NCBI GenBank assembly: GCA_033964015.1
Contig: CM066916.1
Coordinates: 15,540,501 to 15,604,500 of the forward strand
Length of the DNA stretch: 64,000 nt
Direction of reading: 5' to 3'
DNA from: Scolanthus callimorphus
Taxonomy: Eukaryota > Cnidaria > Anthozoa > Actiniaria > Edwardsiidae
Within the stretch, counting starts at the first letter, position 1; each line of letters opens with the position of its first letter. The position numbers and the translations under genes are program-made. Under the pieces are notes generated by a model that saw only the letters and a program-made list of their open reading frames with translations, searched no databases and was not told where the DNA came from. This document shows, piece after piece, positions 3,778 to 64,000 of the stretch.

Positions 3778-6700
3778 TTACGGCTTAGTCAGTTTAGAGC
3801 AGTTCATCCCGCTTGTTACGCACTTCTGGCAAAGCCTCCTGTGGTCGCGTCTGCTTACCACCACCTCCCTTGTACCTCCTGCTCTCGGTCGCTCCTCTAC
3901 CTCCCTCAACTTGCAGGGAAGACACTCAGACCTTTGTTGGTTCTGATCGCACTTGTAGCACAGCTGCCAGTTGCCTTTCCAACTTGTGGAGCTCTGCCAT
4001 GCGCGCTTGCATTTCTTACAGTAAAAACTCGCAAGGCAAGGCTCTGACCCAGTGTACTCCTGAAAGGTAACCAGCATTGCCCCTTCGTTGGACTCCACGA
4101 AATTATTCCATCCTCGCATCTTCAAGAATTTGATTACATTTGGCTTGATTTTCTGCACTCCGTCCTGAGAGTGATGCCCTGCGCCATAGATAATCTCTAG
4201 CCAAGGTTTTGTGAATGCGTTTAGACGGTGTTTGAGCTTAGTGATGGCTTCGTCTTCCTTCTCCACGTTTTCGCGCATGCGCTCCACCCGGCGTTGTACT
4301 TCATATTCTTTCAACCTTCTGTCCTTCATAAGTTGCTTCCTATAGTCACTCAAAAGAGCGTCTATATTCTTTGTGTGCTGACCGTGAAGATCGATCTCGC
4401 TCTCCGTTCGACTGTCATTGAAGAACTTAAAAATAGCATCCGAGGCCTTCCGGTGGCTAGCATCCATAAGAGGTGAGTATTCATTTTTGATCCGGTTGCA
4501 CCTCCTTTCCTCGGTATAGTCCTCATCTTCGATGGCTGCCATGGCTTTTTCTTTCCACTTAGCGCGTCCTCCGTTGAGAATCCCTCCTTGTTTTCTATAG
4601 AAGTTCCCTTCAATGATCAGTGACAGCAGCCTCAGAAATTCTTTCGCGGCGTCGATATCAAAATTCTTGAGATCAATATGAACTTCTCCATTTCCCATTC
4701 TATTGACTTTCTTGCCAAACAACTTGCACTCTGACTCTGGAAAGTGTAACTGAAGGACACGGTTGATATTTTGGATATTGGCATTGTCGGGACCAATAAC
4801 AGACCACCTAGGCACACCCGTGCACATTATACCCAGTGGCTCCGATACCATGTTTAGATACTCGTCTTGATGGAATTCCTCTATACGGATGATCGTCACG
4901 GACAACTTCTTGCCAAACGGTCTTCCATCGTAAAAAGCTTGAAATTCTTTCTGCCCAGCCTCATTTATACCGTCAATGCTAAAAGAGTATCCATTAGAAA
5001 AATTATGGCGCACCTGCAAGTCTGAATCCTCTTCCTCATTATAAACTTTCAAGGTCAGCAGTTTTTTCTTTATTTTTTTTGCAGATACTTCTTCACCGGT
5101 GCAGTCTAAAAGGTCATTTAAAGTCAGTTTGAGCTTAATCGTCGTCGCTTCTCCTTCAGACATAAGCATTGCACTGTCTTCATCCAGCGTTACATCCGAT
5201 CTCTCTGGATCAAGTGGAGGAGCTTTCACTTCGATGTCAAACATTGGGACCTTTATGTAGCTATCCCTGCCTCTGATCGATTCCAAACTCACGTTGTAGC
5301 TCCCTTTCTCGCTGAAACGGTAGTGAAATGTCAGCACAGATCCACAAGATGTGACATTTGTCTGCGAAATCGGGCCATCTGATGCTAAACGCCATTCGCT
5401 GGTATCTAGGTTAGTCCCCTCATCGAATTCACCTCGCTCTTCAACGCGGAACACACGTTCTTGTGTAGGGTACGACGAAACCAGCGGATCACTGTCGTCG
5501 TCTTCCCACGTCCACTCGTCACGGAAAACCCTCTCTCCCGTCAGATATGATACATAAATTGACTGGTGCTTGACAGGTAGTATTTCCACCAAAGGCCCGT
5601 TAGCTACTGTTAAGGGCGTAGATCCAACCTGTTTCCCATCGATAACGACATTTAATGTTCTACTGCCAGTAAAAAAAGGCGTACAAATTATCTCGCATAA
5701 CGAGGAGTCTTGGCCATCTAAGGCTCGGACGGAGTCCTCCTCTTTCTGCAGATTTCTGTCCCGGTTATAGAAATGGAGATCGCATATTAACCCTTCTTCA
5801 CAATCAAAGCAATCAAGCCGAAGATTCACTGAAATTCTTCTTTCTGAGAATAAACTAGTTTCACTGCAAAGCAAGGGCTTTCCGAATCTATCGTAAAGTT
5901 CCACCCGAAACTTGATTTCCTTTCCAATTTCATGCGTGTGCTCACGCAAACGACTGAGGTCTTGAGGGTGAATCCGCGAATTCGTGATGGACAGAGGAGG
6001 CAATATGATCTTCAGAGAAATCGACAAATCCTGTTTAGCTCCGGGAAATGTAAGATTCAAAAATGGCGTCCCGACTTTAAGGCAGCATATACCTAAATCA
6101 TAACACTTTAAACGAGAATCGTAACCGCAAGATTCCAGGGAAACAAAATCTGGCGAGTCCACTGAGATTTGTAGTTTATCATTCTTTGAAATGTTACCAA
6201 AACTGTCTAAGGCGTCCACCATCAACCGTGCAATTCCACCCCTATAAATTTGAGATCCAGTTCCATGGGCTTTGTAAACTGGCGAAATTCTCGAAAGCAC
6301 ATGAAGGCGTGCAGGAGAAGAGGGCTTTACCGTAAACTTGGCTTGAAGCGGATCGGAAGTAACTTTATATTTCGCTGATTCGGTAAAGTAAGGCACGAGG
6401 GAGTAGTTACCAGTAGTAGTCGCATAAACTTCAACCTCAAGAGAGATGGACGTATCACTAGAAGTATGGGGAATCTCATTCGAAGTCACACGCACGGTGG
6501 AAGATGATAGGGTGTTATCAATGTGGATCGTAGGCTTGGGGATCTCAACATTAACCTTCCCGTGACACTGCGTGTACTCCTTGTCAAGCGTTACAGATAC
6601 CCTGCAAACTGAAACCAAATTGCCTGCGATCACATTGCCTGTTAGTTTCATAAACATGACTTCAAAATCAGGTTCAGGGACCACATTTATGATAGGATTC

Positions 6701-8889
6701 ACTTTGCCAACCGTTTTGTTATTGAATGCTACCGACAATTTCCTGTTTCCAGCCACGGAAGGCGTGAAAGATATCTCACAAATTGAAGTGCCGCTGAGAA
6801 GTCTGACTCTGCAGCTTTGCTTCTCTTCTGGGACAGTGCATGTCTTGCAAAATGGATGGAATAAAAAAAGTTCCACATAGCCAGACTTAACGGCTTTACT
6901 CTCAAGAACAGGAAGTGGATTTTCAAAAATGTCGATCAATTCGACCCGGACCTTGATTTCCTTCCCAACCACGTGATTTTCTCCACACAGGCGAGTGACG
7001 TCATCCGAGCAAATGCGCGAACGAAATGCGGACACTGGAGGGATGATGATACTTAAGCTTCTGATAGTAAGAACTTGATGACATGCTGGGAATGAAAGGG
7101 TTATGACAGGTTGTCCAATTTGATTACCATGGATAACCACATCATAACATCTGGCAACAGAGTCAAAAGTACTGGATACCAACGAAACAATGTCAGGGCA
7201 TTCAATTGTGATTCGAATACTATCGTCATCTGAGACGTTACCGAAATTGTCTTGAACTTGAGCGCAAATGTGCGCCTTTCCTCCTCTATAAATTTTAGAC
7301 CCGACTCCATGGCCTTTGTAAGCAGGGGAGACACTAAGTAGCACAAGACGCGCTGGCGAAGATGGCGTTACAGCAAACTCAGCTTGAGAAGGATTGGAAG
7401 ATACTTTGTACTTTGTAGAGTTCGGGAAGCACAGGACAAGGGAGTAGTAACCGGCAGTAGTCGCATATACTACAACCTCAAGTGAGATGGATGTATCACC
7501 AGAAGTATGGGGAGTCTCCTTCGAGCTCACTCGGACGTCGGACGATGCCTGGGTGCTATTAATGTCTATCGTAGGCTTGGGGATGTCAACACTAACCTTC
7601 CCGTAACGCTGTGTGTACTCCTTGTCAAAAGTCACGAGGACTCTACAAATTACAGCTGAATTGCCTGCGACCATTTTGTCACTTAATTTTGCAAATATGA
7701 CTTCGAGTACAGGCTCGGGGACCACATTTAACATAGGAGTCATTTTCCCAAAATCGTTTCCATTTAATAAAATGGACAGCAATCGCCCCCCAGACGAGTG
7801 AGGCGTGAATGTTATCTGAAAGCTGGAGGTCCCCTTAATAGCTGACACTTTGCAATTCGTTTTATCTTTGTGAAGATTTGACACCATGCCATGGATAGAA
7901 ACTAGCTGAAGCTCAAATATCACAGGTACAACTGCTTGGCATTCAAGTGGATTCCCCAGAAGGTCGTACAGATCGACCTGGAACTGTATCTCCTTTCCAA
8001 ACACATGATTTCCTTTACATAAACGAATGACGTCATCGCTACGAATTCGCGAAAGTGAAGTCGACATCGGAGGGGTGAAGATTTTCAAGCTGGTTGAGAA
8101 AACGTCTTGACAATCAGGGAAAGTCAGGCTCATAATAGTTTGACCAGCTTGTGTACCCTCTATAACTACTTTATACGTTCTTGTATCAGTGTCATAGCTG
8201 ATGGAGTGTAAAGAGAAATACGGACTGGTATTTGCGCTGATTTGTACAAGTGTGTTGGAGATGTTGCCAAACACGTCCTGTGCTTGCATGTAAAACGTAC
8301 GTTTTTCTCCCCGGTAAATTTGATGTCCATCCACGTAAGATTTACATAGAGTTTGGGAAACGCTTGATAGGACTAACCTAGATGGAGCCAAAGCTTTCAC
8401 ATTGAATTCCCCATTAGCCTGTGAAATCATACGAACGTTTGTGCCATTTGGAAAATGGGGAGTGATGGAGTACTTTCCTTCAACATAAGCACATATATAC
8501 ACATTTAAAGTGAGGGACTCCTCCACAGTTCCCCTTTCTCTTAAATCCCCTTTTACAGTGAGTCTTGCAGTGCGATGTCCAGGTTCCAGGGAATCATTAA
8601 GTGCTTCTAGTTTGTGATCATATGCAGCACAAGTTGGGTTTGACACCGTTACAATGTCTTCATCGTGCAGATGTGTACAGGAGATCTGTGGTTTAGGTAT
8701 TTTAGCCATAATGTGGAGATTTTGACGCTTGTACTCTTCATTCAGAGTTACAGTAACATCACACACATGCGTCGTTTCGCCAGCTAACAGCTCATTGCAA
8801 ATGTCAGTAATCTGGACGTCAAACAGAGGTGGATGCCTCTTCTTTAAGATTGACTGGATGGGAGCGGATTTCACCAGAGCACGGAACAT
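3778..8889 (-). CDS. Filamin/Ig-like repeat protein with Smr domain and C-terminal 3CxxC zinc finger
   Basis: Single-exon frame of 1,703 codons from an ATG at 8,889 to a TAA at 3,778, with an in-frame TAG five codons upstream of the ATG. Residues about 21-1,098 form three super-repeats starting near 21, 392 and 739. Each has three beta-rich units: one with an IPKP motif, one with IYRG and D-FGN-S, and one filamin-like unit that begins SRI and ends in a G-x-V/F-G-x-x-x pattern. Residues 1,100-1,340 hold further Ig/filamin-like segments. An Smr domain follows: IDLHG at 1,499-1,503 and GAGHHS at 1,569-1,574, preceded by a helix that resembles the region found before other Smr domains. The tail has CxxC pairs at 1,624/1,627, 1,644/1,647, 1,656/1,659 and 1,687/1,690 plus a nearby His, which fits the 3CxxC zinc-finger class of ZAR1 and RTP proteins. 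There is no signal peptide or membrane segment, so a cytosolic or nuclear location is likely. Domain calls are by motif reading; the function is unknown. Confidence 0.9.
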   Translation of the reverse strand: MFRALVKSAPIQSILKKRHPPLFDVQITDICNELLAGETTHVCDVTVTLNEEYKRQNLHIMAKIPKPQISCTHLHDEDIVTVSNPTCAAYDHKLEALNDSLEPGHRTARLTVKGDLRERGTVEESLTLNVYICAYVEGKYSITPHFPNGTNVRMISQANGEFNVKALAPSRLVLSSVSQTLCKSYVDGHQIYRGEKRTFYMQAQDVFGNISNTLVQISANTSPYFSLHSISYDTDTRTYKVVIEGTQAGQTIMSLTFPDCQDVFSTSLKIFTPPMSTSLSRIRSDDVIRLCKGNHVFGKEIQFQVDLYDLLGNPLECQAVVPVIFELQLVSIHGMVSNLHKDKTNCKVSAIKGTSSFQITFTPHSSGGRLLSILLNGNDFGKMTPMLNVVPEPVLEVIFAKLSDKMVAGNSAVICRVLVTFDKEYTQRYGKVSVDIPKPTIDINSTQASSDVRVSSKETPHTSGDTSISLEVVVYATTAGYYSLVLCFPNSTKYKVSSNPSQAEFAVTPSSPARLVLLSVSPAYKGHGVGSKIYRGGKAHICAQVQDNFGNVSDDDSIRITIECPDIVSLVSSTFDSVARCYDVVIHGNQIGQPVITLSFPACHQVLTIRSLSIIIPPVSAFRSRICSDDVTRLCGENHVVGKEIKVRVELIDIFENPLPVLESKAVKSGYVELFLFHPFCKTCTVPEEKQSCRVRLLSGTSICEISFTPSVAGNRKLSVAFNNKTVGKVNPIINVVPEPDFEVMFMKLTGNVIAGNLVSVCRVSVTLDKEYTQCHGKVNVEIPKPTIHIDNTLSSSTVRVTSNEIPHTSSDTSISLEVEVYATTTGNYSLVPYFTESAKYKVTSDPLQAKFTVKPSSPARLHVLSRISPVYKAHGTGSQIYRGGIARLMVDALDSFGNISKNDKLQISVDSPDFVSLESCGYDSRLKCYDLGICCLKVGTPFLNLTFPGAKQDLSISLKIILPPLSITNSRIHPQDLSRLREHTHEIGKEIKFRVELYDRFGKPLLCSETSLFSERRISVNLRLDCFDCEEGLICDLHFYNRDRNLQKEEDSVRALDGQDSSLCEIICTPFFTGSRTLNVVIDGKQVGSTPLTVANGPLVEILPVKHQSIYVSYLTGERVFRDEWTWEDDDSDPLVSSYPTQERVFRVEERGEFDEGTNLDTSEWRLASDGPISQTNVTSCGSVLTFHYRFSEKGSYNVSLESIRGRDSYIKVPMFDIEVKAPPLDPERSDVTLDEDSAMLMSEGEATTIKLKLTLNDLLDCTGEEVSAKKIKKKLLTLKVYNEEEDSDLQVRHNFSNGYSFSIDGINEAGQKEFQAFYDGRPFGKKLSVTIIRIEEFHQDEYLNMVSEPLGIMCTGVPRWSVIGPDNANIQNINRVLQLHFPESECKLFGKKVNRMGNGEVHIDLKNFDIDAAKEFLRLLSLIIEGNFYRKQGGILNGGRAKWKEKAMAAIEDEDYTEERRCNRIKNEYSPLMDASHRKASDAIFKFFNDSRTESEIDLHGQHTKNIDALLSDYRKQLMKDRRLKEYEVQRRVERMRENVEKEDEAITKLKHRLNAFTKPWLEIIYGAGHHSQDGVQKIKPNVIKFLKMRGWNNFVESNEGAMLVTFQEYTGSEPCLASFYCKKCKRAWQSSTSWKGNWQLCYKCDQNQQRSECLPCKLREVEERPRAGGTREVVVSRRDHRRLCQKCVTSGMNCSKLTKP

Positions 8890-8943
8890 ATTGGATACAC
8901 TCTATACAGTATCGCAGAACCAGGCACAATCTTGCTGGGCACT
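8890..8943 (-). promoter_or_regulatory. 5' UTR end and splice acceptor of the large gene
   Basis: On the minus strand a pyrimidine-rich run, TTTTGTTCTATTTTTTACAG, ends at 8,942 and is a textbook splice acceptor. The 53 bases between it and the ATG would be 5' UTR and contain an in-frame stop. This implies one or more upstream noncoding exons at higher coordinates, which I could not identify. Confidence 0.65.
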
Positions 8944-13783: not shown

Positions 13784-14170
13784 TCACATGCTCTCCTCGT
13801 CTTCTGTAATATCTTGCATCCGTAGTCTTGCGGCTGCCGCAGCATCAGGCTGTGGCCTCGCGGGATAATCGCACTTTAGCTCTGGTGGATAAAGGTGTTG
13901 TACTGGGAGTTCTATGTATGATTTTCCAGCGCGTAATTTCACCCCTCGCACTTCTCCGTCCTTGCCAGTAATTAACGAGTTCACGATTCCCATTTGCCAT
14001 TTGCCGCGGTTTTTCTCTTCGGATTTCACGATAACCACTTCGCCGACCGAAGGCTTGTCGTTCGGCGTTTCGACCTTGGCACGATGACGTTCCCGAAGGC
14101 CGCGCAGGTACTCGTCTGTCCAACGTTTCCATATCGCATCTTTACATTTAAGAAGATGCTTGGCCCGCTT
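13784..14170 (-). pseudogene. BEL/Pao C-terminal DUF5641-like region
   Basis: Frames at 14,132 and below encode W-K-R-W-x-D-E-Y-L followed by G-E-V-V-I-V, then R-G-K-W-Q-M-G and a DGEVRG stretch, the pattern of the domain that ends BEL/Pao integrases. It is out of frame with the integrase core because of a break near 14,165. The frame stops at 13,784, before the polypurine tract. Confidence 0.8.
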
Positions 14171-14651
14171 TGCGCAGTTCTGTGTCTTGTTGGTGATGTG
14201 CTTGTAACTCCGGCAGCGTGTTACTCTTGGTGAAGAGAAGCGAGTTCGGCGTCAGCAGTGGAAGCTGCACGTCATCCTCGACGTAGCTCAGCGGCCTGTT
14301 GTTCAGCGTGATTTCAACATCTAGTAGAATCTCCTGTAGCTCTTTCCAGTGCAACATTCCGTTAGCGATAGACTTGTGCAAGGCTGCTTTAACGAGACCT
14401 ATCATCCTCTCGAACTGTCCGCCCCACCATGGCGCGCGGCTGAGGTTGAACTGCCAGCGGATCTGATTAGCAGAGAGGTAGCCTTGTAGGCGTTCATCAC
14501 TCATGACTTGTTTCATCCACTTCGCCGCTCCCACAAATGTCCGTCCGTTATCCGAGTAAATGCGGTCTGGCCTTCCGCGGCGCGAGATGAATTGCTCGAG
14601 ACTATGGAGGCAGTCGGGAGTCTCTAAGCTTGGTAGAAGATTAAGGTACAC
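14148..14651 (-). pseudogene. BEL/Pao integrase core (part)
   Basis: This frame carries RPDRIYSDNGRTF with the second catalytic Asp, then a W-x-F-x-x-x-x-A-P-W-x-G-G-x-x-E-R motif with the catalytic Glu, as expected for a DDE integrase. It is separated from the first part of the core by a frame change near 14,655. Confidence 0.9.
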
Positions 14652-15034
14652 TCCCTAGTCAGGCTGCAAGAGTACAGCAACACGTACGCCTTGCCCTCTC
14701 GTTGTCCTGTCACTCGGTACTTGATCGGTCCTGCGAAGTCTACTCCGATGACTTGATAGGCGCTGGTTCCTTGCGTTCTTGTAGCTGGTAGGTCTGCAGG
14801 CGGCGGGGCCGAGTATGCCACAGCTTGAAAGCGCTTACAGCCATGACATTTATTCCGCACCTTTCTCACGAGCTGTCGTAGCCTTGGGATCCAGTAGGTT
14901 TCTCGCACTTTCGCCATAGTGAGCCCCACTCCCCATGGAGAGTGCGCAAGTGCGCCTCCTCTACTATGCGCAGTGTATACAGATGTGTGTCTGGTAGGTA
15001 AACTGGATAATGTCCCTGGACTCTTCCTCTGCAC
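14624..15034 (-). pseudogene. BEL/Pao integrase, zinc-binding and first catalytic segment
   Basis: The frame holds YWIPRLRQLVRKV then CHGCKRF, the CxxC half of the HHCC integrase zinc finger, and VIGVDFAGPI with the first catalytic Asp. The histidine half lies in the preceding frame, so a break near 14,940 splits the finger. Confidence 0.9.
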
Positions 15035-15675
15035 TCGAGTAGACCGTCTTCATTGGGTTGTAAATTCAGCGCTACTCGTTCGTCTGAAAGATCACAGCTA
15101 TTCTGGGCTTGTTTGATCCAAAAGTATCTCTGAATCTCGGTTTCCTCAGTTATTAAAGGCCCAGTCCGATTCTTCACCCCTCTCTTGCGGCTTAGACTGT
15201 TGTGTGCAAATCTGCGCATCCAGCAGCATATTCTGATGGCCTTTTGTAGCGGGTATTTCACGATGAGCTCGTCGATTTCGTTGCGCTCCAACACAGCTAT
15301 AGACAGTACTTGTTTAACCAACTTAGCTTCCGCTTTGCTTTCCACTGATGGTTCGAGAACGACGTTTGTAGGCCAGCATCCTGGGTTTGACAGCCACTCT
15401 GGCCCTTTCCACCACAGGTCAGCATTCACAACACTCCCCCCTCGGCTTCCTAGGTCAGCGGGATTATCTTTCGTCGGTACGTGATGCCATGTGACGCCTT
15501 GATGACTGTTGATTTTACGAACTCGGTTGGATACAAACTGCTTGTATTCGCCTTGGTTGTTTATCCAGTAGAGCGCAACTGTACTATCGAGCCAGCAGTG
15601 CAGACCGCTGACCGGAAGTCCATCAAGTGTTCTCTTGACATTGTCAATTAAGTTAATTGCCATATGACCAGCCAC
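14866..15675 (-). pseudogene. BEL/Pao RNase H-like region and start of integrase
   Basis: Contains LHCWLDSTVALYWI and WHHVPTKDNPADLGSRG, typical of the segment after the reverse transcriptase in BEL/Pao polyproteins, then the H-containing start of the integrase zinc finger. The listed start codon is arbitrary. A frame change near 15,713 separates it from the reverse transcriptase frame. Confidence 0.9.
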
Positions 15676-17744
15676 TAACTCAAAGCGTGGTATTGTAAGG
15701 CCTTGTTTAGCAGTCTTGCTTTAGCCGCCACCAGCCCTTGATTAACCCCGGACTCTTGCTTGACGACGGCGTAAACACAAGCAGCGACTCCGTGCGCTGA
15801 GGCGTCTCCGAACGAGTGCAGCTCTATGCTCTTGATAGCTTCACGATAAGTCACCAACGATCTTGGAACCTCGACTTTCTGTGGGAGAGAGTTTTCCCAC
15901 TTCGACCACACTTTCTTCACATCATCCGAGATCGGTGCATCCCAAGCTATCTTGGCGTCGCATACTTGACGATAAACTAATTTACCGCAAAGAGTTGTGG
16001 GTGATAAAAGTCCCAAGGGATCATAAACTTTAGCGAGCTTCGCTAAAATCCCTCGCTTCGTTGGCGCAAAGTCCCCTTGCGGTACTGTCACACTCAGCTT
16101 GTCTTCTCTTGTTTGCCAGCCAAGCCCGAGTAAGCTGCATTCCTCGTCGGCTGGTACTCCTAATTCTTGTTTGGCGTAAGTTGGATCCTCGCTCGCAGTT
16201 CCCTCAGACTCGAGCTCCTTGGCGTTGGAGTGCCACTTGTGCGGCTTGAAGCCGGCGTCTTGAAATATTGTTGTAGCTTTCTCCTTGAATTCTCTTGCTT
16301 CCTTCACGGTACATGCGCCGGAAATTAAATCGTCTACGTAAAGTTCCTTTCTGATCCGTGAGACCACTTCAGGTTCTTTGCCTTCCCAGTTATCCAGATG
16401 AGCTTCGATTACTCCCCCAAGCAGGAATGGAGATGGCGCAAGACCAAACAATGCTCTCGTCAACCTTAGTGTTTGTACAGGAGAATGTTCATTTGTACGC
16501 CAATGAAACCGCATTGCATCACGGTCGCATTCTCTCACGCGTACTTGTAAAAATGCTTTCTGCAGATCACCGGTTATGGCTACCAGGTTGAATCTTCCTC
16601 GAACTAGTACGTCCCAAATCTTGTTCTGTAATGGCGGTCCTTTGTGCAGACAGTCATTGAGTGATGGTGCTTCACTGTGTTCCCTCGCTGACCCGTCGTA
16701 CACAATACGACATTTAGTACTTTGCGCCTGGGCACGTAAGACGGGTTTGTGGGGGATGTAGAATTCCCTGCCTACGCTCGGTTCCTTAGCGACCTCTACT
16801 ATTCCTTCCGCCCTTTGTTCTTCTATTATCTCCGCGTACTTTGCTGTGAGATCTTGTCGCTCAAGTTTCTTAGTTAAACTAGCCAATCGCCGCAAACTCC
16901 CTTGTTTGTTGTTCGGTAATGGAGGATCGTCTCCTTTCCAAGGTAATCCTGTCTCATACCAGCCGCTCGCGTCACGTGTCAACTGTTCCTTAAATTCCTG
17001 ATAAACAGTATCTTGACAGTTAGATGGTGTATCCTCAAGCCCCAGAACATCAAGTTTACAAAGTTCCTCGTAATCTGTTTGAGAGGCTTGACACAATAAC
17101 ATGCTTGACACATCGATGGGCTCCTTGCCTGGTGAAATGATTGTCCATCCATAGCGAGTTAATTCAGCGACTGGTTGTCCTGGCAACCCAATCCTTGGCG
17201 CAGTGTCAGTTTTTATCCTGGCGTAATCACTTGCTCCCAAAATGATGTGAATCGGCAGTTTGTCCTTTGTACTTGTATCGAGTAGTTCGATCCCTTGTAA
17301 GTGCGAATTATCTTCGACTAGTTGTTGGTATTTTGGGTTGTCTATAAACAACAGTTCTCCCTTATTCACTTTCGTAACTTGAATTTCCATTTCGTAATCG
17401 CTTCCGATAGACCTGACGCTGATGTCCGCTAACTCTACTTCCCGCGTCGTAGATCCCAGCATCATTTCGATTTTACGCACTTCGCGATTGACGTGGCGCT
17501 TGCTTAGCCGATCTAGTAAAGCGGCTGAAGCGTAACTACTGCCTGCACCCGTGTCCAACAAAGCGCGGCATTTGACTCCTTCGACTTCTACAACAACAAC
17601 AGGATAAACAACTTGCCCGTCCGGGATTCCTGTGGCCACAAGTAGCGGGCTTCCACTTACGTCGACTTGCGTATTATCGCAGATCGAAGTGTGATGCCTC
17701 TGATTACATAGCACAGTTCCATTTACTTCGACAGTCACCAACAC
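15675..17744 (-). pseudogene. BEL/Pao aspartic protease and reverse transcriptase
   Basis: This 689-codon frame begins inside the gag zinc-knuckle region. A DUF1758-type aspartic protease motif, DTGAGSS, lies at residues 64-70. The reverse transcriptase has GDLQKAF (391-397), LFGLAPSPF and the catalytic YVDD at 469-472. This is the longest intact part of the element. It ends early at a frame change near 15,713. Confidence 0.95.
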
Positions 17745-18558
17745 GATGTTGTGGTCTTGTGCAATTAAAGCAAAGTTTTTCTTTGATTAATATCTGCTTT
17801 CTTTTCTTGATATCTGTGACTTGATCACATTCAGCTCCTTTGTGTCCTCCACTACAATAAACACAAATTAGTGCTGGCGTTCCGGCTCGTTGATTCTGTT
17901 GTAACTCGCCGCCAGCGGCTCGCGTTTGAAAAACGCGTGTTGAACGTGGATGAGAATAGTTATTGTTTGGTTTCTTTTCTCCGGTAGTTTCTTCGACGGG
18001 ATTAATTTCCACCCAGCGCTTGAGTTGATCCAGAAGGTCATTAAAATTCCAGTTACGCCATCCATCGTTGCCTCGTACGATATCTGACTTTATGTTTTTC
18101 AGCTTATCCAGCGTAGCCCTGACATTTCCCTTGACTTCCTGAAGCCGCCTCAGTGTCTCTAAACTCTGCACGTTGTATCGCAGCGTCTTGTAAAACTCTT
18201 TAACCTTGCGCGGGCTTGTACCATTGATAATCGGCAGAGCCATAATGTTAGTGATATACGCGTTCACAATCTCGCTATCATTACCGTACTCCTCTTCTAG
18301 GATTTCTTCTGCTCTTTCGTATCCACCCGCGGAGAATGGCAATCCATCTACATCTTTCCTTACATCTGGCTCTAGAAGTTCCTTAGGTAGCCGAACTTTG
18401 TTACTGATGAAAGAGTGGATTTGTCGATTTCGATAATGAATTTCCCCCAGAACTAGAGCCAGTTTTCTGTCTTCCCATCGAACTTGGTGATAGACAGTTT
18501 TGGTAGCTTGGCGTGCGAGGTGCTTGTGCTTGTTGGGCTCGGCGATTTCTACGATTCA
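17704..18558 (-). pseudogene. BEL/Pao gag, C-terminal part with zinc knuckles
   Basis: Open after the in-frame TGA at 18,556-18,558. It continues the gag frame and ends with two cysteine-rich zinc-knuckle motifs (CVYCSGGHKGAEC and CFNCTRPQHRVGDC). The frame changes near 17,715 into the protease frame. A programmed shift is possible, but other breaks in the element make a mutation more likely. Confidence 0.85.
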
Positions 18559-22375: not shown

Positions 22376-25300
22376 GTCTGTCTACTGCGGGTATGTCTGT
22401 TGTGTCAGCTATGCCAGTCATGCCTGTTACATCTGTCTACACCAGTCATGTGTTATCTGTCTACACCGGTCATGTCTTTATATCTGTCTACACCGGTCAT
22501 GTCTTTATATCTGTCTACACCGGTCATGTCGTTATATTATCTGTCTACACCGGTCATGTCTTTATATCTGTCTACACTGGTCATGTCTTTATATCTGTCT
22601 ACACTGGTCATGTCTTTATATCTGTCTACACTGGTCATGTCTTTATATCTGTCTACACTGGTCATGTCTTTATATCTGTCTACACTGGTCATGTCTTTAT
22701 TCCCTGTCTACACCACTCATGTCTTTATATCTGTCTACACTGGTCATGTCTTTATATCTGTCTACACTGGTCATGTCTTTATATCTGTCTACACTGGTCA
22801 TGTCTTTATATCTGTCTACACTGGTCATGTCTTTATATCTGTCTACACTGCTCATGTCTTTATATCTGTCTACTCTGGTCATGTCTTTATATCTTTCTCC
22901 CCAGGTCATGTCTTTATATCTGTCTACACCGGTCATGTATTTATGTCTGTCTACTCCGGTCATGTCTTTATGTCGGTCTACACGGTCATGTCTTTATATC
23001 TGTCTACACCGGTCATGTCTTTATATCGGTCATGTCTTTATATCTGTCTACACTGGTCATGTCTTTATATCGGTCATGTCTTTATATCTGTCTACACTGG
23101 TCATGTCTTTATATCTGTCTACTCTGGTCATGTCTTTATATCTTTCTACACCGGTCATGTCTTTATATCTGTCTACACCGGTCATGTATTTATGTCTGTC
23201 TTATACTCCGGTCATGTCTTTATGTCGGTCTACACCGGTCATGTCTTTATGTCGGTCTACACTGGTCATGTCTTTATATCTGTCTACACGGTCATGTCTT
23301 TATATCGGTCATGTCTTTATATCGGTCATGTCTTTATATCTGTTTACACTGGTCATGTCTTTATATCGGTCATGTCTTTATATCTGTCTACACTGGTCAT
23401 GTCTTTATATCTGTCTACACCGGTCATGTCTTTATATCTGTCTACACTGGTCATGTCTTTATATCTGTCTACACTGGTCATGTCTTTATATCTTTCTACA
23501 CCGGTCATGTCTTTATCATCTGTCTACACTGGTCATGTCTTTATTCCCTGTCTACACCACTCATGTCTTTAATATTATATCTGTCTGCACCGCTCATGTC
23601 TTTATATCTGTCTACTCTGGTCATGTCTTTATATCTTTCTACACCGGTCATGTCTTTATATCTGTCTACACTGGTCATGTCTTTATATCGGTCATGTCTT
23701 TATATCTGTCTACACTGGTCATGCTTGTTGTGTGTCTACACTGGTTATGTCTGTTATATTTGTCTACGCCGGCCATGTCTTTACTATATCTGTCTACGTA
23801 CGCTGGTCGTGTCTTTAATCTGTCTACACTGGTTATGTCTTTGTATCTGTCTACACCGGTCATGTCTGTTATATCTGTCTACACTGGTCATGTCGTTATG
23901 TAGGTCATGTCTTTATATCTGTCTACACTGGTCATGTGTTCAGTACATGTACGTACTTGTCTACACGGTCATGTCTTTATATTCTGTCTACACCGGTCAT
24001 GTCTTTATATCTGTCTACACTAGTCATGTCTTTATATCTGTCTACACCACTCATGTCTATAATCTGTCTACACCGGTCATGTCTTTATATCTGTCTACAC
24101 TGGTCATGTCTTTAATAATATCTGTCTACACTGCTCATGTCTTTATATCTGTCTACTCTGGTCATGTCTTTATATCTTTCTACACCGGTCATGTCTTTAT
24201 CATCTGTCTACACCGGTCATGTCTTTATATCTGTCTACATCGGTCTTGTGTGTTATATCTGTCTTCACCGGTCATGTCTGATCTGTCTACACCAGTCATG
24301 TCTTTATATCTGTCTACACTGGTCATGTCTTTATATCTTTCTAAACCGGTCATGTCTTTATCATCTGTCTACACCGGTCATGTCTTTATATCTGTCTACA
24401 CCGGTCATGTCTTTATATCTGTCTACACCGGCCATGTCTTCATATCTGTCTACACTGGTCATGTCTTTATATCTCTCTACACTGCTCATGTCTTTTTATC
24501 TGTCTACACTGATCATGTCTACATCGGCCATGTGTGTTATATCTGTCTTCACCGGTCATGTCTGATCTGTCTACACCGGTCATGTCTTTATATCTATCTA
24601 CTCTGGTCATGTCTTTATATCTTTCTACACCGGTCATGTCTTTATCATCTGTCTACACCGTTCATGTCTTTATATCTGTCTACATCGGTCATGTGTGTTA
24701 AATCTGTCTTCACTGGTCATGTGTGATCTGTCTACACCGGCCATGGCTTCATATCTGTCTACACTGGTCATGTCTTTATATCTCTCTACACTGCTCATGT
24801 CTACATCGGCCATGTGTGTTATATCTGTCTTCACCGGTCATGTCTGATCTGTCTACACCGGTCATGTCTTTATATCTATCTACTCTGGTCATGTCATGTC
24901 TTTATATCTCTCTACACTGCTCATGTCTTTTTATCTGTCTACACTGATCATGTCTTTATATTTGTCTACATGTTCATGTCTTTATATCTGACTACACCAC
25001 TCATGTCTTTATATCTGTCTACACTGGTCATGTCTTTATATCTTTCTAAACCGGTCATGTCTTTATCATCTGTCTACACCGGTCATGTCTTTATGTCTGT
25101 CTACATCGGTCATGTGTGTTATATCTGTCTTCACCGGTCATGTCTGATCTGTCTACACGGTCATGTCTTTATATCTGTCTACTCTGGTCATGTCTTTATA
25201 TCTGTCTACAACGGTCATGTCTTTATCATCTGTCTACACCGGTCATGTCTTTATATCTGTCTACATCGGTCATGTGTGTTAAATCTGTCTTCACCGGTCA

Positions 25301-27430
25301 TGTCTGATCTGTCTACACCGGTCATGTCTTCATATCTGTCTACACCGGTCATGTCTTCATATCTGTCTACACCGGTCATGTCTTCATATCTGTCTACACT
25401 GGTCATGTCTTTATATCTCTCTACACTGCTGATGTCTTTTTATCTGTCTACACTGATCATGTCTTTATATTTGTCTACATGTTCATGTCTTTATATCTGA
25501 CTACACCGCTCATGTCTTTATATCTGTCTACACTGGTATGCCTGTTATGTGTCAACACTGGTTATGTCTGTTATATTTGTCTACACCGGCCACGTCTTTA
25601 TATATCTGTCTACATACGCTGGTCATGTCTTTAATCTGTCTACACCGGTTATGTCTTTGTATTTGTCTACACCGGTCATGTCTTTATATCGGTCATGTCT
25701 TTATATGTATATCTGTCTACACTGGTCATGTCTTTATATCTCTCTACACCGGTCATGTCTTTATATCTGTCTACACCGGTCATGTCTTTATATCTGTCTA
25801 CACCAGTCATGCCTTTATCTGTCTACACCACTCATGTCTTTATATCTGTCTACACCAGTCATGTCTTTATATCTGTCTACACCGGACATGTCTTTATATC
25901 TGTCTACACCAGTCATGCCTTTATCTGTCTACACCACTCATGTCTTTATATCTGTCTACACCAGTCATGTCTTTATATCTGTCTACACCAGTCATGTCTT
26001 TATATTCTGTCTACACTGGTCATGTCTTCATATCTGTCCATGCTGCACATGTCTTTATATCCGTCTACACTAGTCATGTCTTTATATCTGTCTACACCAC
26101 ACATGTCTATAATCTGTCTACACTGGTCATGTCTATATCTTTCTACACCGGTCATGTCTTTATATCTGTCTAAACAGTCACGTCTTTATATTATCTGTCT
26201 ACACGGTCATGTCTTCATATCTGTCTACACTCTTCATGTCTTTATATCTGTCTACACCAGTCATGTCTTTATATCTGTCTACACCGGTCATGTCTTTATA
26301 TCTGTCTACACCGGTCATGTCTTTACATGTATATCTGTCTACACTGGTCATGTCTTTATATCTGTCTACACCAGTCATTTTATATCTGTCTACACCAGTC
26401 ATGTCTTTATATCTGTCTACACCGGTCATGTCTGTTATATCTGTCTACACCGGTCATGTCTTTATGTCGGTCTACACTGGTCATGTCTTTATATCTGTCT
26501 ACACCACTCATGTCTTTATATCTGTCTACACTGGTCATGTCATTATATTATCTGTCTACACAGGTCATGTCTTTACATGTATATCTGTCTACACAGGTCA
26601 TGTCTTTACATGTATATCTGTCTACACCAGTCATTTTATATCTGTCTACACCAGTCATGTCTTATATCTGTCTACACCGGTCATGTCTTTATATCTGTCT
26701 ACACCAGTCATTTTATATCTGTCTACACCAGTCATGTCTTTATATCTGTCTACACCGGTCATGTCTTTATATCTGTCTACACTGGTCATGTCTTCATATC
26801 TGTCTACACCGGTCATGTCTTTATATCTGTCTACACCGGTCATGTCTTTATATCTGTCTACACTGGTCATGTCTTTATATCTGTCTACACTGGTCATGTC
26901 TTTATATCTGTCTACACCGGTCATGTCTTTATATCTGTCTACACCGGTCATGTCTGTTATATCTGTCTACACCGGTCATGTCTTTATGTCGGTCTACACT
27001 GGTCATGTCTTCATATCTGTCTACACCGGTCATGTCTTTATATCTGTCTACACTGGTCATGTCTTTATATCTGTCTACACGGTCATGTCTTTATATCTGT
27101 CTACACCGGTCATGTCTGTTATATCTGTCTACACCGGTCATGTCTTTATGTCGGTCTACACTGGTCATGTCTTTATATCTGTCTACACCGGTCATGTCGT
27201 TATATTATCTGTCTACACTGGTCATGTCTTTTCATGTATATCTGTCTACTCTGGTCATGTCTTTATATCTTTCTACACCGGTCATGTCTTTATATCTGTC
27301 TACACCGGTCATGTCTTTATATCTGTCTACATCGGTCATGTCTTAATATCTGTCTACACTGGTCATGTCTTGATATCTGTCTGCACCAGTAATGTCTCCT
27401 ACATCTGTCTATACTGGTGTCATGTCTGCC
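22376..27430. repeat. 5-kb minisatellite array, 27-bp unit
   Basis: About 185 units with consensus TCTTTATATCTGTC plus TACACCGGTCATG. The unit is nine codons long and stop-free in several frames, which produces long artificial frames on both strands. Units vary mainly at the GGT position (CGG, TGG, CAG, CAC, CGC). Shortened units that lack the TCTGTCTACA part occur in patches, and composite blocks recur around 24,130-25,540. Confidence 0.98.
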
Positions 27431-31232: not shown

Positions 31233-33235
31233 TTACCTAAGGCAAGGTAGCGGGGTAAGGTTCGATAACCAGTACTAAGTTACTAGCGTACCAATACCTA
31301 AGGCAAGGTAGCGGGGTAAGGTGCGATAACCAGTACTAAGTTACTAGCGTACAATCCGGAATACAAGATCTGCTTGGATTACTTTACATGGGGCGACACT
31401 AGCGTACCAATACCTAAGGCAAGGTAGCGGGGTAAGGTGCGATAACCAGTACTATACCTAAGGCAAAGTAGCGGGGTAAGGTGCGATAACCAGTACTAAG
31501 TTCCAATACCTAAGGCAGGGTAGCGGGGTAAGGTACGATGACGTGTACTAAGTTACTAGTGTACCAATACCTAGGCCAAGGTAGCGGGGTAAGGTGCGAT
31601 AACCAGTACTAAGTTACTAGCGTACGAATACCTAGGGCAAGTTAGCGGGGTAAGGTGCGATAACCAGTACTAAGTCACTAGCGTACCAATACCTAGGGCA
31701 AGGTAGCGGGGTAAGGTGCGATAACCAGTACTAAGTTACTAGCGTACCAATACCTAGGGCAAGGTAGCGGGGTAAGGTGCGATAACCAGTACTAAGTTAC
31801 TAGCGTACCAATACCTAGGGCAAGTTAGCGGGGTAAGGTGCGATAACGAGTACTAAGTTACTAGCGTACCAATACCTAAGGCAAGGTAGCGGGGTAAGGT
31901 GCGATAACCAGTACTAAGTTACTAGCGTACCAATACCTAGGGCAAGGTAGCGGGGTAAGGTGCGATAACCAGTACTAAGTTACTAGCGTACCAATACCTA
32001 GGGCAAGGTAGCGGGGTAAGGTGCGATAACCAGTACTAAGTTACTAGTGTACCAATACCTAGGGCAAGGTAGCGGGGTAAGGTGCGATAACCAGTACTAA
32101 GTTACTAGTGTACCAATACCTAGGGCAATATAGCGGGGTAAGGTGCGATATCCAGTACTAAGTTACTAGCGTACCAATACCTAGGGCAATATAGCGGGGT
32201 AAGGTGCGATAACCAGTACTAAGTTACTAGCGTACCAATACCTAGGGCAATATAGCGGGGTAAGGTGCGATAACCAGTACTAAGTTACTAGCGTACAAAT
32301 ACCAGGGCAAGGTAGCGGGGTAAGGTGCGATAACCAGTACTAAGTTACTAGCGTACGAATACCTAGGGCAAGGTAGCGGGGTAAGGTGCGATAACCAGTA
32401 CTAAGTTACTAGCGTACCAATACCTAGGGCAAGGTAGCGGGGTAAGGTGCGATAACCAGTACTAAGTTACTAGCGTACCAATACCTAGGGCAAGGTAGCG
32501 GGGTAGGGTACGATGACTAGTACTAAGTTATTAGCGTATCAACACCTGGGGCAAGGTAGCGGGGTAAGGTGCGATAACCAGTACTAAGTTACTAGCGTAC
32601 AAATACCTAGGGCAAGGTAGCGGGGTAAGGTGCGATAACCAGTACTAAGTTACTAGCGTACGAATACCTAGGGCAAGGTAGCGGGGTAAGGTGCGATAAC
32701 CAGTACTAAGTTACTAGCGTACCAATACCTAGGGCAAGGTAGCGGGGTAAGGTGCGATAACCAGTACTAAGTTACTAGCGTACCAATACCTAGGGCAAGT
32801 TAGCGGGGTAAGGTGCGATAACCAGTAACTTAGCTAGTAACTTAGTAGTTACTAGCGTACCAATACCTAGGGCAAGGTAGCGGGGTAAGGTGCGATAACC
32901 AGTACTAAGTTGGCAAGGTAGCGGGGTAAGGTGCGATAACCAGTACTAAGTTACTAGCGTACCAATACCTAGGGCAAGGTAGCGGGGTAAGGTGCGTTAA
33001 CCAGTACTAAGTTACTAGCGTACCAATACCTAAGGCAAGGTAGCGGGGTAAGGTGCGATAACCAGTACTAAGTTACTAGCGTAGCAATACCTAGGGCAAG
33101 GTAGCGGGGTAAGGTGCGATAACCAGTACTAAGTTACTAGCGTACCAATACCTAGGGCAAGGTAGCGGGGTAGGGTACGATGACTAGTACTAAGTTATTA
33201 GCGTATCAACACCTAGGCAAGGTAGCGGGTATTGG
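31233..33235. repeat. Satellite array, 61-bp unit
   Basis: About 33 units of the type GGCAAGGTAGCGGGGTAAGG, then TGCGATAACCAGTACTAAGT, then TACTAGCGTACCAATACCTA plus G. Some units are truncated. Partial units in inverted orientation flank the array at 30,987 and 33,226-33,320. Confidence 0.97.
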
Positions 33236-63060: not shown

Positions 63061-63299
63061 CCGCCAAAGGGCCTGGGGCAAAACACAGGTAGCCCGCGCG
63101 TATTCACAGAAAACGACAACGCTATCTCGATATGTAATTATTCTCTGTGACTATAGCAACCGAACACAATAACAAGAACTGCGAATATCTTGAAAGCACA
63201 TTTTTGGCCATCTGTACTAAAATAATACCTTTCGCGGCGCTATTATTTGCGAATAAAAGAAATAGATGCAAAATTAAACATTCAATTAAAAAAAAGATA

Positions 63300-64000
63300 T
63301 CAGGCTTTGTAGATGGGGGAGAGTGGGTCGTTATAGCGGATATCGGGCTTTGTAGATGGAGTGGTGCGGGTCGTTATAGGGGATATCGGGCTTTGTAGAT
63401 GGAGTTGCGCGCGTCGTTATAGGGGATATCGGGCTTTCTAGATGGAGTTAGGCAGGTCGTCATAGGGGAAATCGGGCTTTGTAGATGGGGTAGCGCGGGT
63501 CGTTATAGGGGATATCGGGCTTTGTAGATGGAGTTGAGCGGGTCGTTATAGGGGATATCGGGCTTTGTAGATGGAGTTGGGCGGGTCGTTATAGGAGAAG
63601 TCGGGCTTTGTAGATGGAGTAGAGCGGGTCGTTATAGGGGAGATCGGGCTATGTAGATGGAGTAGAGCGGGTCGTTATAGGGGATATCGGGCTTTGTAGA
63701 TGGAGTAGAGGGTCGTTATAGGGGAGATCGGGCTTTGTAGATGGAGTAGAGCGGGTCGTTATAGGGGATATCGGGCTTTGTAGATCGAGTTGGGCGGGTT
63801 GTTATAGGGATATCGGGCTTTGTAGATGGTGTAGAGCTGGTCGTTATAGGGTATATCGGGCTTTGTAGATGGAGTTGCGCGCGTCGTTATAGGGGATCTC
63901 GGGCTTTGTAGATGGGGTAGCGCGGGTCGTATAGGGGATATCGGGCTTTGTAGAGGAGTAGAGCGGGTCGTTATAGGGTATATCGGGCTTGTAGATGGAG
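63300..64000. repeat. Minisatellite, 43-bp unit, running off the window
   Basis: About 16 units of the type GTCGTTATAGGGGATATCGG, then GCTTTGTAGATGGAGTAGAG plus CGG. Variation is concentrated at the GAG-T-G-GCG segment. The array continues beyond 64,000. Confidence 0.97.

Follow-up and report, generated by a model that had tools for sequence, protein, structure and literature searches.

In a 64,000-nucleotide stretch of the genome of the sea anemone Scolanthus callimorphus (hereafter the window), we found a long coding frame whose product joins an N-terminal array of filamin-like Ig units to a C-terminal tail. The tail, which would be the fixed part of the protein, comprises a KH-like predicted fold, a DUF1771 hairpin, an N4BP2-type Smr domain with a helical insert and a ZCCHC24-type 3CxxC zinc module. 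Proteins with this domain combination look like a conserved, undescribed family, whose range is probably anthozoan. The reading that we favor, with slightly better than even confidence, is that of a soluble cytoplasmic RNA-directed effector, in which a changeable partner-binding Ig array is coupled to a fixed RNA-acting tail.

The frame spans 1,703 codons from ATG to TAA (window 3778..8889, minus strand, as for all features of the gene given below). It had been claimed to be intact and indeed contains no internal stops. Among 100 shuffles of the 64-kb window, the longest open frame had 226 codons, and the mean of the maxima was 152. Apparently, the frame represents one coding exon. The ATG at 8889 is the earliest one downstream of a pyrimidine tract followed by AG (8942..8943). 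Judging from the sequence, this AG is a plausible 3' splice site; the exon would then start at 8941, with a predicted 5' UTR of 52 bases up to the ATG. By eye, the start of the window's protein (P0001) resembles those of two database relatives, P0002 and P0004, in having a short basic Met-led stretch followed by the first Ig unit.

The preliminary description had proposed three domain families in this protein, and all three (filamin/Ig-like super-repeats, an N4BP2-type Smr domain and a 3CxxC finger) were recovered. The Ig-like part consists of super-repeat 1 with three filamin/Ig-like units (7705..8820), super-repeat 2 (6664..7704), super-repeat 3 (5599..6663) and two further Ig-like units (4888..5598), which we added to the first reading. 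In the Pfam search Filamin exceeds the cut-off for the whole protein (38.8 versus 26.9 bits), single super-repeats being below it: super-repeat 1 alone scores 25.3 bits, and neither super-repeat 2 nor super-repeat 3 alone matches any family over the cut-off. Super-repeat 3, which displays filamin/Ig folds in the model, is the one that aligns best with the single super-repeat of P0002. The first structure model covers residues 745-1704 (mean pLDDT 57.5); the fold matches listed for it fall in the Ig-like part, at about 114-592, and filamin rods are among them.

Despite the shared Ig-like repeats, the protein is not a filamin as such. Filamins carry N-terminal actin-binding CH domains, whereas no such domain is listed for the window's protein (Pfam, E up to 10), and its repeats are set in 350-residue super-repeats. 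The Filamin score and the filamin rods could also be explained by a structural cytoskeletal scaffold whose tail is a relic. We consider this quite improbable in view of the missing actin-binding domain and the stronger conservation of the tail. Whichever two of the five family proteins are compared (ten pairs), identity is higher in the tail than in the Ig part, for example 43% versus 29% for P0001 and P0002, and 61% versus 46% for P0002 and P0004.

Within the tail, the Smr region (4060..4398) is predicted to adopt the Smr alpha/beta fold, and its best match by sequence, profile and predicted fold alike is the Smr domain of N4BP2. The likeness to N4BP2 and to its no-go decay homologues Cue2 and NONU-1 covers Smr sequence and fold, the D-L-H motif and the glycines of GxG. 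Asp-Leu-His of the LDxH motif (4384..4392) is invariant in the six aligned sequences, where the motif invariably reads I-D-L-H. The counterpart of N4BP2 G-R-G-N-H-S is G-A-G-H-H-S (4168..4185). At the TGxG position the six sequences have Y/D/V-G-A/S-G, retaining both glycines and the following H-S in every case and Thr in none, so that Thr and Arg of the N4BP2 TGRG are replaced throughout. Another difference from N4BP2 is a helical insert of about 30-37 residues, in which an extra helix is predicted (4255..4308); the spacing from H to GxG is 65-73 in the six members compared to 36 in N4BP2. The Pfam Smr model itself scores below the cut-off in P0003, P0004 and P0005 and is not listed in P0002.

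The DUF1771 helical hairpin (4417..4593) adjoins the Smr domain, a frequent trait of eukaryotic members of Smr family 2, and precedes it both here and in N4BP2. It scores over the Pfam cut-off of 28.7 bits in P0002 (29.3) and P0004 (33.2), is below it in P0003, P0005 and the paralogue L007 and is unlisted in P0001; in these proteins it was placed by homology. When the genome was searched with PF08590 (E 0.001), neither the window's gene nor its copies and paralogues (L006, L007 and L008) were among the matches, and two other DUF1771 loci scored over the cut-off. One of these separate loci (L019), as judged by eye, encodes in the same frame a conventional-looking Smr domain without the insert. 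An N4BP2 orthologue would be expected to have CUE and P-loop kinase domains; neither is listed for the window's protein (Pfam, E up to 10), which in turn has the filamin-like array and the zinc module as extra parts. The protein is not an N4BP2 orthologue.

The best-studied eukaryotic Smr nuclease is Cue2, a ribosome-collision factor with ubiquitin-binding domains. It is the yeast homologue of N4BP2 (PMC6598757, PMC13084044) and cuts mRNA at stalled ribosomes in vivo (PMC6598757). D348, H350 and R402 of Cue2 matter for this activity: the joint D/H change abolished cleavage, and R402A lowers activity (PMC6598757). We infer that R402 is the Arg of the TGRG motif. TGxG is needed for RNA cutting by SOT1, yet both SOT1 (TGTG) and LdCSBP (TGQG) cut RNA without the TGRG Arg, and variants such as SGSG and SVRG are on record for plant Smr proteins (PMC6662315). 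Since the tail lacks both Thr and Arg of TGRG, RNA cutting is uncertain. In our view the tail probably acts on RNA; that it cleaves RNA is a tentative suggestion, to which we give somewhat less than even weight. An RNA-binding adaptor without catalysis, with Smr, the zinc module and DUF1771 binding RNA or ribosomes and the Ig array attracting other decay or translation factors, would account for the reduction of TGRG to xG(A/S)G in all six sequences. We regard this alternative as rather unlikely, as the retention of D-L-H, the two glycines and H-S in the same six sequences seems to go beyond the needs of a pure scaffold.

Action on DNA has to be weighed as well. DNA endonuclease activity in vitro is reported for all three Smr subfamilies (PMC3200294, PMC6662315), and SOT1 uses LDxH in DNA cutting (PMC6662315); a nuclease or repair factor that nicks or binds DNA, like MutS2 and the N4BP2 domain in vitro, could be built on the same core. 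However, the yeast homologue of N4BP2 targets mRNA in vivo (PMC6598757), the finger type attached here binds mRNA (PMC11624195) and no DNA-repair domain is listed by Pfam for the window's protein, which together make a DNA-directed role improbable.

Upstream of DUF1771, the predicted structure suggests a KH-like domain (4588..4839). Its loop carries an Asp, GxxG being changed to GxDx in all six sequences. Because sequence searches for KH in the window's protein were negative, we keep it as a predicted-fold lead only. At that level the protein is reminiscent of KHNYN, the ZAP cofactor, a single chain that likewise combines a KH-like fold with an RNase-type domain; this domain is NYN in KHNYN, and the window's protein has Smr instead. 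The KH pair of KHNYN is reported to show no RNA binding and to have a potential protein-contact cleft (PMC11997328), a feature that would suit the non-catalytic adaptor. The comparison with KHNYN also brings up a more specific, although unlikely, version of the effector reading: an anthozoan innate RNA-defence family with sensor and nuclease in one chain. Fast-changing Ig arrays would recognize foreign or stress-modified proteins, and the tail (KH-like/DUF1771/Smr/3CxxC) would cleave RNA translated or bound nearby; the protein would then be a single-chain equivalent of the ZAP and KHNYN pair of vertebrates.

The C-terminal zinc module (3781..4053) retains nine cysteine columns in all five complete sequences. 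The six cysteines of its three CxxC pairs are identical in six of six sequences when the anemone's own ZCCHC24-like protein is included and the truncated P0005 is left out. The finger had previously been described as 3CxxC of the ZAR1/RTP type; the 3CxxC class stands, and the correct label is ZCCHC24-type (PF17180). The module resembles the anemone's ZCCHC24-type protein in the 3CxxC spacing, the W and P-K-R positions and the C-terminal LCxKC. PF17180 is over the cut-off in P0004 (27.4 versus 27) and below it in P0001, P0002, P0003 and L007. ZCCHC24_C is also below the cut-off in P0001, and the zinc region has pLDDT below 50 in the predicted structure. The exon of the anemone's ZCCHC24-type protein is at L013 1474-1764 (minus strand). 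Both this exon (E 0.0027) and the zinc module of P0001 (E 0.013) have weak, below-cut-off matches to UPF0515, which we take to be the C19orf66/Shiftless family; judging from these sequence matches, the zinc ribbons of the ZCCHC24 type and of Shiftless may be linked. Human ZCCHC24 binds UGUWHWWA in mRNAs and stabilizes them (PMC11624195); in the window's protein, by contrast, the module is the tail of a large protein. An analogous arrangement, by description and not by sequence comparison, is that of Leishmania LdCSBP, in which zinc-finger RNA binding and Smr are combined in one chain and cut RNA in a sequence-specific manner (PMC6662315). Its finger is of the CCCH class, and no Ig array is mentioned for it (PMC6662315).

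Searching for the same architecture elsewhere, as had been suggested, proved productive. Homologue searches yielded four database proteins: P0002 (977 residues), P0003 (939 residues; LOC114520892 of the octocoral Dendronephthya gigantea), P0004 (960 residues) and P0005 (1,086 residues), the last of which stops at the end of Smr, without the zinc end. According to the alignment, the Ig part, DUF1771 and Smr are present in all four and the zinc module in all three complete ones. The Ig-like model Ig_GEX2_N is over the Pfam cut-off in P0005. Because these searches depend on exact word matches, distant relatives are missed: P0003 appeared in one search and was absent from two others, and the search from the tail of P0001 returned P0002 and P0004 only. 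As the combination recurs in relatives, we consider it to be one protein and not a chance run-on; a read-through artefact as the source of the frame was rejected on the same grounds. A viral or prokaryotic origin was also considered, but pattern scans based on the tail alignment produced 24 and 129 candidate stretches, none of which turned out to be a relative by tblastn. Among the papers listed in literature searches, none describes this filamin-like and Smr architecture.

The genome contains further copies. A recent duplicate of the gene and its flanks (L006, C6:13719861-13729860) lies 1.8 Mb from the window (C6:15540501-15604500; the searched assembly has 597 Mb in 302 contigs) and is 98.6% identical over 7.6 kb, with the frame broken after about codon 173. 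A more distant paralogue is represented by two loci, L007 3441-7049 on C6 and L008 3532-7143 on C17, which are 99.9% alike over 7.7 kb and may be two haplotypes of a single gene. Their 1,203-residue open frame has five 111-residue Ig-like units in place of the super-repeats and the same tail as the window's gene. The units are 56-86% alike, with dN/dS of 0.42-0.97 in ten pairs. At these loci, an ATG that by eye resembles the start of other members lies close to five consecutive C and in a different frame. A genome search with the paralogue's tail detected the window's gene, L006, L007, L008 and two weak matches, one a ZCCHC24-type exon and the other full of stops.

Selection on the frame, suspected at the outset, is supported by comparisons within the gene. 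The dN/dS ratio is 0.38 between super-repeats 1 and 2 (dS about 1.5, Fisher p 4e-12) and 0.43 between super-repeats 2 and 3 (dS about 1.0, Fisher p 6e-10); super-repeats 1 and 3 give 0.18 at a dS of 4.0, which is near saturation. The recent copy lends weaker support: the ratio is 0.59 (p 0.043) over 1,531 in-frame codons, with 11 codons at the break left out, and stays at 0.59 with them. Possible decay of this copy would inflate dN/dS. Broken L006, retrotransposon remains 5 kb off and long tandem arrays nearby are what a chance fusion or a gene decaying beside repeats might show, yet dN/dS is below 1 and the architecture is common to the four database proteins (P0005 lacking the zinc end) and the L007/L008 paralogues; we hold this explanation to be extremely improbable.

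As to cellular location, no clear membrane helix or signal peptide was detected in six proteins by 19-residue hydropathy. The highest mean is 1.21-1.59 in five of them, the usual threshold for a membrane helix being 1.6; P0004 reaches 1.77 inside its Ig part, and P0001 has no N-terminal hydrophobic core (0.45). Based on the hydropathy and on the comparisons with Cue2, ZCCHC24 and LdCSBP, we interpret the protein as a cytoplasmic effector directed at RNA; the earlier proposal of a nucleic-acid-directed effector with a protein-binding scaffold is reasonable as a hypothesis. In such an effector the N-terminal filamin-like Ig array would hold protein partners and set where or when the tail acts; the zinc module, perhaps also the ribosome, would bring RNA, which DUF1771-Smr would grip and perhaps cut in the manner of Cue2. 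A recognition-effector system would be expected to show just this pairing of a variable array with a constant tail. A DUF1771-Smr core joined to a filamin-like array and a zinc module of an mRNA-binding type would represent another way of aiming Smr, unlike that of Cue2.

The rest of the window is rich in repeats, and there is no Rfam match over the cut-off within its 64 kb. BEL/Pao retrotransposon remains (13784-18555, minus strand) include pieces of DUF1759, RT/Peptidase A17, integrase and DUF5641, each in its own interrupted frame. Tandem arrays are found at 22417-27427 (5 kb; about 183 copies of a 27-base unit), 31503-33229 (28 copies of a 61-base unit) and 63296-64000 (16.5 copies of a 43-base unit, cut by the window end); the 27-base array also gives rise to open frames, the longest of 795 codons, that are probably spurious. 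Elsewhere in the genome we noted 14 GFP-family matches, 11 of them on contig C4, where a cluster of GFP-like gene pieces at 3.82-3.96 Mb makes up 10 of the 14. The 60 best of 311 PDB sequences matching one GFP-like exon include red fluorescent proteins such as mKate, TagRFP and drFP583, which come from sea anemone and corallimorph.
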